This document shows, one piece after another, positions 30,543 through 52,128 of a DNA stretch of 64,000 nucleotides (positions within the stretch are counted from its first letter, which is position 1; every line of letters starts with the position of its first letter). Source of the DNA: Thermoanaerobaculales bacterium (lineage in GTDB: Bacteria > Acidobacteriota > Thermoanaerobaculia > Thermoanaerobaculales > Sulfomarinibacteraceae). The stretch spans positions 1 through 64,000 of the forward strand of contig JALOLD010000005.1 of NCBI GenBank assembly GCA_025456145.1, in the 5' to 3' direction. Below the pieces are notes generated by a model, which did not search any database, had not been told where the DNA came from, and saw only the letters and a program-made list of their open reading frames with translations. The translations under genes were made by a program, and so were the position numbers.

Positions 30543-31412
30543 ATGGCGTTGCAGGGGTCTCTCTCCGAGCTCTCGCTGGCTGACGTGATCCAGATGGTCA
30601 GCGTCTCCGGGAAGACCGGCGTATTCGAGGTCCGTCGCCATGGCGAGATCGGCAGGATCTTCCTGCGCGACGGTCAGATCGTCGACGCCGCGGTCGCCGC
30701 GCTGCGCGGCGACAACGCGGTCTACGAGATGGCGATCTGGTCGGAGGGCGAGTTCAGCTTCAAGCCCGGCGAGGAGACCGACACGGTCACCATCCACCTG
30801 TCGAACGCGAACCTGATGATGGAGGCGGCGCGCCGCCTCGACGAGTGGCGGGTGCTGTCGCGCAAGGTCCCGTCCCTCGACCTCGTGCCCTTCTTCACCT
30901 CGCGGGATCATCACGACCAGGTGACGCTGAGCCCGCACGAGTGGATCCTGGTGACCCGCATCGACAACGAGCACAGCATCGAGGCGATCGCCGAGCAGCT
31001 CCACTGGTCGGCCTTCGACGTGTCGAAGCTGCTGTTCGGGATGATCACCTCTGGCCTCGTCGCGCTGCGCTCGAAGGACGACGATCCGGTCTCCTCGGGC
31101 GGGCCGAAGGGACCGAGCACAGTGACGCTCATCGGTCTCGCCAGCCGGATCCGGACGGTGGCTCTCGGCGTGGTCGGGACGAGCGGCGAGCACACCATCG
31201 ACAAGCAGTTCGCGGCCGCCCGGACCCTCATCGAGCGAGGGGCCGGGTTCGACGCCATCCGAACCATGGTCGAGCAGCACAGCAAGGCGATCTCGCTGCT
31301 CAAGGGCGCCGACATCGCCGCCATGTTCGACGAGCAAGTCCGACCGCTGCTCGGGAGCGCCGAGCGCGCCCCCACGACGGCGGGTAACACCCAGGGAGGC
31401 AATGTCTCATGA
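30543..31412 (+). CDS. DUF4388 (PATAN-type) domain protein
   Basis: 289 residues. The N-terminal 100 residues match the DUF4388/PATAN pattern (MALQGSLSELSLADVIQM, SGKTGVFEV, GRIFLRDGQIVDA), a domain common in gliding and signalling proteins of myxobacteria and Acidobacteriota. The remainder is mostly helical without a recognised fold. It is 20 bases after tonB and overlaps the TPR gene by four bases, so it belongs to this operon and may tie the TonB motor to an intracellular signalling protein. Function unknown. Confidence 0.85.
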   Translation: MALQGSLSELSLADVIQMVSVSGKTGVFEVRRHGEIGRIFLRDGQIVDAAVAALRGDNAVYEMAIWSEGEFSFKPGEETDTVTIHLSNANLMMEAARRLDEWRVLSRKVPSLDLVPFFTSRDHHDQVTLSPHEWILVTRIDNEHSIEAIAEQLHWSAFDVSKLLFGMITSGLVALRSKDDDPVSSGGPKGPSTVTLIGLASRIRTVALGVVGTSGEHTIDKQFAAARTLIERGAGFDAIRTMVEQHSKAISLLKGADIAAMFDEQVRPLLGSAERAPTTAGNTQGGNVS

Positions 31413-47514: not shown

Positions 47515-48891
47515 ATGATCCGCGGGAACCTCGATCGCCTCCACCTCGGCGATCTCCTGCACTGGCTCGAGCTCGGTGGGCAGACCGGTCGGCTGACTCT
47601 CACCGACCGGGTCGGCGAGCGCCGTCTCGATCTCCTGCACGGCCGGATCGTCTATGTCTCCTCGACCGTGCCCGAGGAGCGGCTCGCCTCCTGGCTCGCC
47701 CGCGACGGGCTGCTTCCGGCGACCTCGGTCCGCCGCCTGCTCGCCGCATCGATGCTCCGCCACGAGCTCTTCACGGATGTCCTGCTCGCCGAGCGGGCGA
47801 TCAGCGAGACCGCCCTCGGGGCGTCATTGACGGTGCTCGCCGAGCTCATGATGAGCCGGATCCTCGACGCCGCCGAGCTTCGCTTCGAGCTCGACCCGAA
47901 CCACCCGATCCGCGATCCGTCCGGGCTCTACCTCAGCCTGACGCCGAGCCGTCTCCTGCTCGACTCGGCCCGCCGAGTCGACGAGTCGAAGTACCCGCGC
48001 TCGACCTCGCCGTCGCCGGTGCTGCCCCTCGACGAGGAGGCGGTGGAGGACTTCTTCTGGCAGCTCGTCCGCCAGGGCATCCCGGGCGACGACCCGGTCG
48101 ATGGCGACCAGCTCAGCGCGCTGCACGACATCGTCCGCAACGTCATGGCGAGCCTCGCCCAGTGGCTCGCCTCGAGCACCGGCCTGGTGCCCCAGCCGGC
48201 CGATCAGGGCGAGATCATGGCGGCCGCCCTGGACACCACCGGCCGCGTCCGGTTGTTCGGGCTGCCGCAGACCGCCTGGAATCTGATGGTCCTCGCCTGC
48301 TCGATCCGGGCCGATGAGCTGACCCCCCCGGGGGCGCTCGCCGAGATCGACGACTTCGCCGCCGCGCTCGATCTGTGGCCGGAGGTCACCGCCGGTCGGC
48401 GGTGGGAGCGGGGCCGGGCCGGCGCCCTCGACCGGCTGACCCGGCGTGCCGCGATCGTCTGGTCGCGAGGCGCCGCCGCCGCCGCCGCCGAGCTCGAGGC
48501 CGACCCCGGCGCCGCCGAGCTGGCCGCCCATCTCCTCACCGTGCCCACCGACCTCGTGCTCTGGGTGCTCGCCGCCCTCCCGGTACCCCACAACGGAATC
48601 CGCCGCGCGCTGCTCGCCGAGCTTCCCCGCCGGATCGGCGCCGGGCTGAGCCACCTCGCCGACTTCCCGCCCGAGATCCGGCAGGTGCTGCACGGCGCCC
48701 GACCGACGCTGCTCGGCGCCTGCCTGCACGTCAGCCGCGGCCTGGTCCCCTCGGCGGCGGTCTGGCCGATGACGATGCCCGACGACGAGGCGATGCTCTC
48801 GCTCGCCGCGCCCGATCGGCTCCAGCGGGCGGCGGCCGCCGCTCGTCAGGCGGTCGAGGGGCTCGGTCCGACGGCGCCTCCGGTCGGCTGA
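47515..48891 (+). CDS. DUF4388 (PATAN-type) domain protein
   Basis: 458 residues from the ATG at 47515. The N-terminal 100 residues show the DUF4388 pattern (MIRGNLDRLHLGDLLHW, GQTGRLTLTDR, LHGRIVYVSS). The rest is helical, rich in Ala and Leu, without a recognised fold. It is convergent with the MglA-GAF-kinase fusion, from which it is separated by six bases. DUF4388 proteins frequently accompany MglA-type GTPases in polarity and gliding systems, so the two may work together. A second DUF4388 protein is at 30543. Confidence 0.82.
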   Translation: MIRGNLDRLHLGDLLHWLELGGQTGRLTLTDRVGERRLDLLHGRIVYVSSTVPEERLASWLARDGLLPATSVRRLLAASMLRHELFTDVLLAERAISETALGASLTVLAELMMSRILDAAELRFELDPNHPIRDPSGLYLSLTPSRLLLDSARRVDESKYPRSTSPSPVLPLDEEAVEDFFWQLVRQGIPGDDPVDGDQLSALHDIVRNVMASLAQWLASSTGLVPQPADQGEIMAAALDTTGRVRLFGLPQTAWNLMVLACSIRADELTPPGALAEIDDFAAALDLWPEVTAGRRWERGRAGALDRLTRRAAIVWSRGAAAAAAELEADPGAAELAAHLLTVPTDLVLWVLAALPVPHNGIRRALLAELPRRIGAGLSHLADFPPEIRQVLHGARPTLLGACLHVSRGLVPSAAVWPMTMPDDEAMLSLAAPDRLQRAAAAARQAVEGLGPTAPPVG

Positions 48892-48897
48892 GACCGG

Positions 48898-51027
48898 TTA
48901 CTGGGGTAGGGCCAGTGACGCCTGGAGGCCGGCCGGCTCGCGTCGGGCGAGGGTCAGGCGGCCACCGTGACGCTCGACCGTCTGGCGGGCGATCGCGAGG
49001 CCGAGGCCGATCCCCCGGTGGCCCCCCCGCTTGCCCGCGGCGCCCTGCCAAAACGGCTCGGTGGCGCGCGACAGCTCGTCGGCGGCGAGGCCCGCACCGG
49101 TGTCCGAGACCTTGAGCTCGATCCAGGGCCGCCCGGCCCGCATCGCCCGCCGCACCTCGATCCGAACCTCGCCCCCGGCGGGGGTGTGCTCGATCGCGTT
49201 CTTGACCACCGCGCGCAGCGCCGTGGCCAGGGCCTCGGCATCGCACGAGATGGTCGTCAGATCGCTCGGGCTGAGGACCTTGATCTCGACCTCGAAGCGT
49301 CGGGCGAGATCGCGGAGCGGCGCCACCGTGGCGCGCAGCAGCTCGGCGAGCCCGGCCGGTCGCACCTCGGGCGCCCGGCCTTGGCCGACCACTGCCGCTG
49401 CCTGGGCGACGCTGTCGATGAGCTCGGCGAGGGTCGCGGCCTCGCCGCGGATGATGTCCAGGAAACGGGAGGTCGTGTCCGGCGGGGCGTCGCGGACCCG
49501 GTCGAGAGCGCCGACCGCCGTGACCAGCGAGGCGACCGGCGTCTTCAGCTGGCTCGCGATCCGCGAGATCAGCTCGCTCTTGACGCGGTCGAGGCCCTCG
49601 AGCTCGCGGTTGAGCCGCCGGACCTCGTCGAGGGTCGTCCTGAGCTCGTCGGTGCGCTGGACGACCGTGCTTTCGAGACCGGTCCGGCTCTCCTCGAGCT
49701 GGCGGAAGGCGAGGGCGTTGGCGTAGCCCATCGCGGCCGTCGCCGCGAGGATGACGGCGAGCTCGAGATCGTCGTCGTCGAGCGGCGATCGTCCCCGGAC
49801 TCGGTACACCGTGAGGAGCCCGAGCAACCGGTCGTTCGCCACCATCGGTGCGGCGACCGCGGACGAGAAGCCGCTGTCCTCGACCGCGAGCTGCGCCGCG
49901 CTCACGGTGGCGCCCTCGAGGTCGGCGGCGATCAGCACCGGCTCGCCGGCGGCGGCGATCTCTTGGGCGACCGCTCGTTCGCCGGCCCTGGTCGCGAGCA
50001 GCGGATCGCGCTCGACCCCGTGGACCACCGCCTCCCTGAGCTCGCCGGCGCCCGGAACGATCAGCACCGCGGTTCCCTGCACCCCGAGATGGGCGACCGC
50101 GGTCCTGACGAGCATCCGGAGGACGTCGGCCGGGTCGCGCTGGTGGGTGATGGCGCGCCCGAAGTCGGCGATCGCGCGGATGACCCGGACCTTGCGGTCG
50201 AGCTGCCTGCTGACCGTCTCGAGCCGCGCTCCGAGATCGGTCATGGCGAGGTTGGCTCGCACCGCCTCGCCGACCAGGACGTCGGCGGGCAACGGCCCGG
50301 TCTCGTCGGAAGGTCGGTCGGGGGTCGTGACCTCGATGTCGTCGATCGCGGCGCCGGGATCCGGCGCGCTCACGAACGGCTCGAGCGCCGCGCGGGTCTG
50401 CTGGCGCAACCGGTCGATCGCGTGCCCCGTGGTGTCGATGCCGAGCCGGTCGGCGAGCGACACGAGCGTGCTCTCGGTGATCGCGGCGAACGCGTCCATG
50501 ACCCCGTCGCCGGAGATCGCGATGGTCGGGAAGGCGGGCCGGGCCTCGGGGTTGAGCGCGGTCTCGAGGTCCGCGATGGAGAGCTGGTCGGCGAGGTCGC
50601 GCTTGTTGTACTGGAGGACCAGCGGCAGGGTCTGGGGGTCGATGCCGTTGGCCTCGAGGTTCTCCCTGAGGTTGGCCGCCGACTGGCGGTTCGCCTCGAG
50701 CTGGTCGGGCTGGCTATCGGCGACGAAGATCACGCCGTCGGCGCCGGCGAGGACCGCCCGGCGGGTGGCGTTGTACTGGACCTGTCCGGGGACGGTGTAG
50801 AGCTGGATGGTCAGCCGGTAGCCGCGGATTCGACCGAGGTTGAGCGACAGGAGGTCGAAGAAGAGGGTGCGGTCCGAGGCGGTGTTGAGCGAGTAGAGCC
50901 GGGTCCGACGCTGAGGGTCGGTGACCCGGTGGACGTGCTTGAGGCAGGTGGTCTTCCCCCCGAGGGCCGGGCCGTAGTAGACGATCTTGACCTTGATCTG
51001 CCGGTACTGGTTGTCGAACTGGACCAT
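48898..51027 (-). CDS. MglA-type GTPase fused to GAF and histidine-kinase domains
   Basis: 709 residues. A complete MglA-like small GTPase (1-195) with P-loop GPALGGKTT (19-27), the MglA-type switch TVPGQ and G4 motif NKRD; a linker; a GAF domain (about 290-440); a coiled coil; and a kinase core (about 475-709). The DHp segment reads IASQLKTPV where HisKA proteins have SHELRTPL, so the phospho-accepting His is Ser (S492). The HATPase part is intact (KNAIEH, DTGAGL, GIGLGLA). It may bind ATP and signal by shape or phosphorylate another protein. A GTPase-controlled sensor is unusual. Good GGAGG before the ATG. Confidence 0.9.
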   Translation of the reverse strand: MVQFDNQYRQIKVKIVYYGPALGGKTTCLKHVHRVTDPQRRTRLYSLNTASDRTLFFDLLSLNLGRIRGYRLTIQLYTVPGQVQYNATRRAVLAGADGVIFVADSQPDQLEANRQSAANLRENLEANGIDPQTLPLVLQYNKRDLADQLSIADLETALNPEARPAFPTIAISGDGVMDAFAAITESTLVSLADRLGIDTTGHAIDRLRQQTRAALEPFVSAPDPGAAIDDIEVTTPDRPSDETGPLPADVLVGEAVRANLAMTDLGARLETVSRQLDRKVRVIRAIADFGRAITHQRDPADVLRMLVRTAVAHLGVQGTAVLIVPGAGELREAVVHGVERDPLLATRAGERAVAQEIAAAGEPVLIAADLEGATVSAAQLAVEDSGFSSAVAAPMVANDRLLGLLTVYRVRGRSPLDDDDLELAVILAATAAMGYANALAFRQLEESRTGLESTVVQRTDELRTTLDEVRRLNRELEGLDRVKSELISRIASQLKTPVASLVTAVGALDRVRDAPPDTTSRFLDIIRGEAATLAELIDSVAQAAAVVGQGRAPEVRPAGLAELLRATVAPLRDLARRFEVEIKVLSPSDLTTISCDAEALATALRAVVKNAIEHTPAGGEVRIEVRRAMRAGRPWIELKVSDTGAGLAADELSRATEPFWQGAAGKRGGHRGIGLGLAIARQTVERHGGRLTLARREPAGLQASLALPQ

Positions 51028-51207: not shown

Positions 51208-52128
51208 TCAACCGCGCGGCCGCGCGGTCGGCCGGTCCCCGAGGCCCGGGTCGGGGCGACGAGGTTCGGCGACCGGCACCGGTCGGCGGGCCGCCCGGCC
51301 CGCGCTCGTCTTGCCGGCGGCGAACCCGACGACCGACGGCTCGGCGAGCTGGAAGCTCGAGTCGCCGGTGATCTCGTCGACCACCGAGGCGTAGCCGAAG
51401 ACCAGAACGTCCGGCGGACCGTCCTCGATCCAGAAGACGAGGGCGCCGCCCTCGACCGGTGCCTCGAGCCGCCGTTGGATGTGTCCATAGGGTGGCAGCT
51501 GCAGCCTGACGCGGTCGACGATCTCTCCGTCGGCGTTCTGGACGTCGACCGCCACGGTGGTCGGCCCATCGGTCCACGAGGCGACGCCGATGTTGGTCCG
51601 GAACCGCTCGCCGTCGTTGAGGATCCCAGCGGCATACCCGAGGGTGCCCCAGTCGACCCCCTGCCAGGTGCCGGCGCCCGGTATGGTCTGGCCGAACTCG
51701 CCGGCGCCGCCCCGGGGGTCGAGGGTGTAGGTCCGCGAGGTCGCGAGAAAGTCGCACTCCTCGACCGGGTCGCAGGCCAGGCTCCAGTCGGCGAACACCA
51801 GGATCGCCCCGGTCCCCCCTCGCGCGAACCCGGATGGTCCGAGCACGTCCCACAGGTTGTAGGTCTCCCACGGGTAGAGGGTGAGGGAGAGGGTCTCGGC
51901 CTGGCGGTTGTCGGTGCCGCTCGGCAGGAACTGGATCACCACCGGCAGGTCGTGGGCCTGCGGGTTGTGGAGCGACAGATCGGTGTGCCAGACGGTGCCG
52001 TTGAGCCCGGCGACGTTGGCCGCCGCCGGCACCATCCACTGGAGCGACAGCTGGGCCTCGGCGGTGACGGCGCCAAAAAGGAGCGCTGCGGCGGCGGTGC
52101 TGAGAACGACCCGTCTCAAGCTCTTCAT
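51208..52128 (-). CDS. Secreted protein of unknown function
   Basis: 306 residues with a clear signal peptide (about 1-25, cleavage near AEAQLS) and a mature part rich in beta-strand-like segments, with repeated aromatic and Gly residues. It contains the pattern VPAAANVAGLNGTVWHTDLSLHNP-like (quoted in part: WMVPAAANVAGLNG, VWHTDLSLHNP), which I associate with exported proteins of Acidobacteriota. The C-terminal 35 residues are Pro/Arg-rich and may be disordered. Function unknown. Confidence 0.75.
   Translation of the reverse strand: MKSLRRVVLSTAAAALLFGAVTAEAQLSLQWMVPAAANVAGLNGTVWHTDLSLHNPQAHDLPVVIQFLPSGTDNRQAETLSLTLYPWETYNLWDVLGPSGFARGGTGAILVFADWSLACDPVEECDFLATSRTYTLDPRGGAGEFGQTIPGAGTWQGVDWGTLGYAAGILNDGERFRTNIGVASWTDGPTTVAVDVQNADGEIVDRVRLQLPPYGHIQRRLEAPVEGGALVFWIEDGPPDVLVFGYASVVDEITGDSSFQLAEPSVVGFAAGKTSAGRAARRPVPVAEPRRPDPGLGDRPTARPRG

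Follow-up and report, generated by a model that had tools for sequence, protein, structure and literature searches.

The window, the whole 64,000-nucleotide stretch of DNA that we analyzed, carries on its minus strand a gene that begins with an ATG at 51027, ends with a stop codon at 48900-48898, and encodes a protein of 709 amino acids. The open reading frame, its translation, its Pfam matches, and its presence across the order Thermoanaerobaculales (an orthologue was found in 33 of 37 genomes) bear out the first-pass annotation, which had described a 709-residue MglA-GAF-kinase-core protein here; the coding strand is the minus strand. A chance open reading frame or a wrong-strand annotation was rejected given the Pfam matches, the predicted fold, and the recurrence of the same gene in those 33 genomes. 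The AlphaFold2 model (mean pLDDT, 81.9; pTM, 0.48) is good for the domain folds and not for the domain arrangement. The features at the locus are:

48898..51027, minus strand: whole fusion gene, encoding a 709-amino-acid MglA-linker-GAF-coiled coil-DHp(-like)-HATPase protein
50443..51027, minus strand: MglA-type GTPase domain, residues 1-195 (PDB 5ymx, E 1.5e-51; predicted fold TM 0.88-0.93 to MglA)
50947..50973, minus strand: P-loop GPALGGKTT, residues 19-27 (G19, P20, G24, K25, T26, and T27 invariant in 31/31 orthologues)
50869..50871, minus strand: R53, counterpart of the intrinsic arginine finger of MglA, invariant
50782..50784, minus strand: Q82 in switch 2 (TVPGQ), invariant; needed for GTP hydrolysis in MglA
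50158..50442, minus strand: largely helical linker, residues 196-290 (AlphaFold2 helices 201-220 and 248-294)
49729..50136, minus strand: GAF domain, residues 298-433 (Pfam PF01590, E 6.3e-12)
49408..49581, minus strand: DHp (HisKA-like) hairpin without acceptor, residues 483-540 (Pfam PF00512, 24.4 bits; model helices 418-510 and 516-548)
49552..49554, minus strand: codon of Ser492 at the phosphoacceptor column (His in 18/31 orthologues)
48904..49242, minus strand: HATPase_c domain, residues 596-708 (Pfam E 9.5e-21; N box N610, G1 box DTGAG 642-646, G2 box GIGLGL 672-677)
47515..48891, plus strand: DUF4388 (PATAN) gene, convergent to the fusion (Pfam E 3.3e-16)
51208..52128, minus strand: upstream co-directional gene for a predicted secreted protein; it adjoins the fusion across the order, and in another family a REC-kinase gene intervenes

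MglA is a single-domain polarity GTPase coupled to MglB. By sequence and by predicted fold, the G domain of the fusion is an MglA: Pfam recognizes an Arf/Ras-type G domain at the N terminus, the best PDB matches by sequence are the MglA proteins of M. xanthus and T. thermophilus (E 1.5e-51 over residues 7-191), and the AlphaFold2 fold aligns to MglA structures with TM scores of 0.88-0.93 of the target. The hallmarks of the family are present, including the P-loop GxxxxGK[ST], the TVPGQ switch 2 in which Thr replaces Asp, and NKxD. Arg53, whose role is taken from work on MglA (PMC6876712), and Gln82, whose replacement in the Q82L variant leaves MglA unable to hydrolyze GTP (PMC6876712), are invariant across 58 aligned fusions from the phylum. 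Of the 36 columns that are invariant in this set, 33 fall in the GTPase and three in the HATPase (N610, D642, and G689), with none in the GAF domain or the DHp. At 709 amino acids, however, the protein departs from the single-domain form of about 200 amino acids that is a criterion of the MglA family. No mglB/roadblock gene was found beside the fusion at this locus; three roadblock genes lie elsewhere in the genome, and a canonical mglB-mglA pair is located at L002, away from the fusion. The earlier statement that MglA normally stands alone holds only in part, since the same genome encodes two further MglA proteins whose long, Pro-rich C-terminal tails appear disordered (L003:1498-2952, 484 amino acids; L004:1501-3519, 672 amino acids) and MglA-GAF(-kinase) fusions occur widely in the phylum. 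Family f21 of the same phylum also has MglA-GAF proteins that lack a kinase core (L136, L138, L140-L142, and L145).

The phosphoacceptor column was assigned from an alignment of 31 full-length orthologues from this one order, which is gap-free at the H box, and inside the order the assignment is certain. Eighteen of the 31 carry the H box [IV][AS]HE[LF][NKR]TP. The window protein reads IASQLKTP, with S492 replacing His and Q493 replacing the general-base Glu. The Ser that the first-pass annotation had placed at the phosphoacceptor position is thus confirmed across the DHp alignment, and an objection that it had raised against itself, an alternative acceptor His nearby, fails: none is conserved anywhere in the DHp, and a shifted acceptor was likewise rejected. 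In the AlphaFold2 model, S492 lies within the long first DHp helix (residues 418-510). The HisKA match over residues 483-540 falls slightly below threshold (24.4 bits versus the Pfam cutoff of 26.9), as expected from a damaged H box. Both congeneric species have Ala at column 492 and Gln at 493, so that Gln493 is found in all three species of the genus; in the remaining His-less orthologues of the order, the acceptor column holds S, L, A, N, or D. Because His is also absent from both congeneric genomes, a sequencing error at S492 was rejected. All 27 other histidine kinases readable in the same genome keep their His. The loss therefore belongs to the fusion protein, and a genome-wide tendency toward His-less kinases was rejected. 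With Ser492 for the acceptor His and Gln493 for the acidic general base, the fusion lacks two of the hallmarks of class-I histidine kinases.

Alanine in the congeners also bears on whether Ser492 could have taken over as phosphoacceptor, or whether the protein could be an RsbW-like Ser/Thr kinase with an outside substrate. Ser occupies the exact acceptor position in 5 of the 19 His-less rows of alignment A1, but both congeners carry Ala in this column and other members carry Leu, Asn, Asp, Gln, Thr, Glu, or Gly. We regard this explanation as very improbable, and Ser492 as a substitute acceptor was rejected on account of the congeneric Ala.

At the motif level, the HATPase domain is as intact as the first-pass annotation had suggested, with the N, G1, F, and G2 boxes all present. 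N610, D642, G644, G646, G672, G674, G676, H687, and G689 show no variation among the 13 His-less orthologues or among the 18 with His, and neither do K25, T26, R53, T78, Q82, N141, and D144 of the GTPase. In alignment A1, N610, D642, G644, G646, and G674 are kept in 19/19 His-less rows, with G672 and G676 varying in a few; the same rows show nine different residues at column 492 and a variable phosphatase-Thr column. Pairwise dN/dS for the HATPase ranged from 0.03 to 0.39 in His-less pairs, indicating that the domain is under purifying selection in the His-less members. The highest values (0.34-0.39) came from pairs involving the window protein, hinting at some relaxed constraint on its own branch. 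When per-domain rates were estimated on a fixed tree, the HATPase/GTPase distance ratio was 1.4-2.9 in His-less clades versus 1.5-2.2 in His-bearing clades, with no consistent HATPase excess; the DHp was faster evolving in some His-less clades. Intact motifs do not prove ATP binding, since DivL, with all its boxes kept, is a weak ATP binder and lacks autokinase activity (PMC4211667).

Beyond the order, none of the 112 remaining genomes of the class had the orthologue at the search threshold used, and within the order survey the fusion was not found in G001-G003. Other families of the phylum have more divergent full-length fusions (27-36% identity over residues 1-708). A survey of how many MglA-GAF-HATPase fusions keep the His, as the first-pass annotation had proposed, yielded 65 full-length MglA-GAF-kinase fusions in the sampled Acidobacteriota genomes: 43 with His and 22 without, the latter bearing S, A, L, N, D, Q, T, E, or G in its place and having open reading frames in all 22 cases. 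In Planctomycetota, the fusion was detected in 7 of 199 genomes (L171-L177); His is kept in all seven, and no receiver gene was found beside any of them. On a tree built without the H-box columns, a quick tree in which some deep joins are long-branch joins, parsimony gave at least six changes of His state, with the acceptor-column assignment less sure in two very degenerate f49 rows (L122 and L124). Parsimony itself gives no direction of change. A complete SHELKTP motif is unlikely to have been regained, however, and we read the changes as six or more losses of His.

The genes surrounding the fusion differ between families. In sister family f2, the genes run as follows: a secreted protein, a REC-histidine kinase with a classical His, the fusion, sometimes a GAF-SpoIIE phosphatase, a single-domain receiver, and an ATP-grasp protein. 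Examples of this operon (L048:5560-6726, L049:6343-7857, and L048:8893-9297) have two kinases side by side with one receiver. f1, the family of the window, lacks the REC-kinase and receiver; the exception is G011, where a receiver lies 11 bp downstream of the fusion and the His is kept. In G023, the sole His-less member of f2, the REC-kinase, the receiver, and the His are all gone. The product of the upstream gene at 51208..52128 had no Pfam match, and no cvnABCD-type four-gene conservon operon was found around the fusion. Across the 65 Acidobacteriota fusions, a response-regulator gene adjoins 36 of the 43 His-bearing members and 0 of the 22 His-less members. Only five or six independent contrasts bear on this link (two or three concordant, none discordant; p = 0.25-0.5), too few for significance, and the association is suggestive, not significant. 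Two close relatives, L014 and L022, keep the His without an adjoining receiver, a state that would be expected if receiver loss precedes His loss.

The f2 gene order also suggests a way in which the HATPase could remain catalytic, by phosphorylating the His of a different kinase within a heterodimer: the REC-kinase beside the fusion, with its His intact, would be a natural partner. Retention of the N, G1, F, and G2 boxes and the approximately 27 His-bearing kinases of the genome are in keeping with such a role. However, the partner kinase gene is missing from every His-less locus and the general-base Glu has become Gln in the whole genus, and we consider phosphorylation in trans unlikely. The kinase acting on an outside target that the first-pass annotation had offered as one possibility gains no support in view of this genus-wide Gln, the lack of an adjoining receiver at His-less loci, and the Ala of the congeners at column 492.

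Reduced and lost forms of the gene provide a further line of evidence. In G004, of the same family, a 533-amino-acid protein (L067:2392-3993) consists of GTPase, linker, and HATPase; the GAF domain and the LxTP motif of the DHp are gone, and the N, G1, F, and G2 boxes are present. Survival of both nucleotide domains in this stripped form argues that GTPase plus ATPase may constitute the working core. In G005, the fusion gene is cleanly missing between otherwise syntenic neighbors (L107:7306-9542), so the fusion is not essential. These two cases would also fit a slow decay in which the kinase half is a relic heading to loss and only MglA, perhaps with GAF, matters, as would the kinase-less MglA-GAF proteins of the phylum and the peak in HATPase dN/dS on the window branch. 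Decay is difficult to reconcile, however, with several separate His-less lineages in which N610, D642, G644, and G646 are invariant, with frames that remain open in 22/22 His-less members, and with a G004 form that loses the GAF domain yet keeps the HATPase. We therefore judge it to be a minor possibility.

Six bases separate the stop codons of the fusion and the DUF4388 gene. The first-pass annotation had tied this neighbor to MglA systems; the domain at 47515-48891 is confirmed, but the MglA link is weak, given that the gene is convergent, contributes one of the genome's 14 DUF4388 domains, and stays in G005 although the fusion is lost. The gene lies beside the fusion in most f1 genomes and at another locus in g5, and f2 has only distant homologues, elsewhere in the genome. 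An obligate partnership was rejected in light of G005 and f2, and proximity here is weak: context, not evidence of shared function. A second, stronger DUF4388 domain was observed in the window at 30552-30851 on the plus strand. PATAN is an older name of the DUF4388 domain. Two Myxococcus PATAN proteins were among the candidates screened in a study of MglA and type IV pili and were not taken further there (PMC11580455).

Comparison of the loci shows in f2 what appears to be the surviving ancestral form, with the His present and accompanied by a REC-histidine kinase and a single-domain receiver, and in the window lineage a form from which receiver, partner kinase, and acceptor His are gone while the GTPase motifs and ATP-pocket residues persist. 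Loss of His several times, with no receiver gene beside the fusion, suggests that these proteins act as nucleotide-controlled switches, not kinases. On balance, and with some reserve, we favor the hypothesis that the fusion is a phosphotransfer-dead descendant of a cytoplasmic MglA-GAF-histidine kinase that now serves as a nucleotide-controlled switch whose output is an MglA contact. In such a switch, the DHp hairpin and coil would hold the dimer, the GAF domain would sense ligand, and the HATPase would bind ATP; the conformation of the pseudo-kinase core would set, or read, the nucleotide state (GTP or GDP) of the two MglA domains. The MglA domain, which is the best-conserved part, would deliver the output as a protein contact, with no phosphate transfer. 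Conservation fits this far with the GTPase-gated ATP-binding scaffold of the first-pass annotation, in that the pocket and G motifs are kept and the acceptor, general base, and phosphatase Thr drift. As to the direction of control, we lean toward the core gating GTP over GTP gating the core, given that conservation peaks in the G domain and that in conservons an MglA-like GTPase is the proposed recipient of signals from a GAF-controlled histidine kinase (PMC13343842). Against the switch hypothesis stand the dN/dS of 0.34-0.39 on the protein's own branch, the dispensability of the fusion, the retention of His without a receiver in L014 and L022, and the small number of contrasts. Extending it to the whole family is more tentative, and we put it at somewhat short of an even chance: the phosphotransfer half would have been switched off several times with both nucleotide sites under selection, yielding a class of bacterial dual-nucleotide (GTP/ATP) switches in which one part of the protein, either the pseudo-histidine kinase or the Ras-like GTPase, regulates the other from within.

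The reference survey of prokaryotic Ras-like GTPases left out sequences longer than 240 amino acids (PMC4316618), and such fusions lay outside it by design. In the open-access literature searched, we found no description of an MglA-kinase fusion or of its repeated loss of phosphotransfer. Both MglA and pseudo-histidine kinases are already known; what is new relative to that literature is their joining in one protein whose acceptor has been lost repeatedly. A single protein that links a Ras-like GTPase to a two-component kinase core would give a direct view of the wiring between bacterial polarity GTPases and sensory input. Repeated loss of His, never with an adjoining receiver, constitutes a natural experiment, with related genera supplying His-bearing and His-less homologues that can be paired to ask directly whether a GTPase can be regulated by a histidine-kinase core that transfers no phosphate.

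Among known systems, the MglA proteins of Myxococcus xanthus and Thermus share 40-46% identity with the fusion over the G domain in fold alignments, with the same P-loop, R53, Thr78 of the G3 motif, Q82, and NKxD. They are single-domain proteins coupled to MglB, whereas here the GTPase forms the N terminus of a 709-amino-acid protein, and mglB is paired with the canonical mglA at L002, away from the fusion. The conservons of Actinomycetota (CvnA kinase, CvnB roadblock, CvnC, CvnD GTPase, and CvnF GAF protein) likewise bring a histidine kinase-like protein, a GAF accessory, and an MglA-like GTPase into one pathway (PMC13343842), which makes control of a GTPase by a GAF-kinase plausible. In contrast to the single His-less polypeptide described here, their components are encoded by separate genes, and CvnA8 autophosphorylates on His183 and needs it (PMC13343842). 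The surveyed Acidobacteriota and Planctomycetota fusions have the same domain order as the window protein, at 27-36% full-length identity outside the order, but most keep the His (43/65 and 7/7, respectively), and most of the His-bearing Acidobacteriota ones adjoin a receiver gene. The closest solved kinase core by sequence is DivL (PDB 4q20; E 2.5e-16), which is also among the best matches by predicted fold. Caulobacter DivL similarly has a class-I core with all nucleotide boxes and no acceptor His, and its function is reported to proceed without kinase activity (PMC4211667). DivL has PAS domains and a conserved Tyr and reads phosphorylated DivK, whereas the fusion has MglA and GAF instead of PAS, no adjoining receiver gene, and no conserved substitute residue; in place of the Tyr/Ala of DivL-type acceptor sites, its family has Ser, Ala, Leu, Asn, Asp, and others, and what it shares with that type is the His-less kinase core. 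The best reading of these comparisons is that the fusion is a phosphotransfer-dead regulatory module, DivL-like in logic, that probably acts on or through its GTPase.
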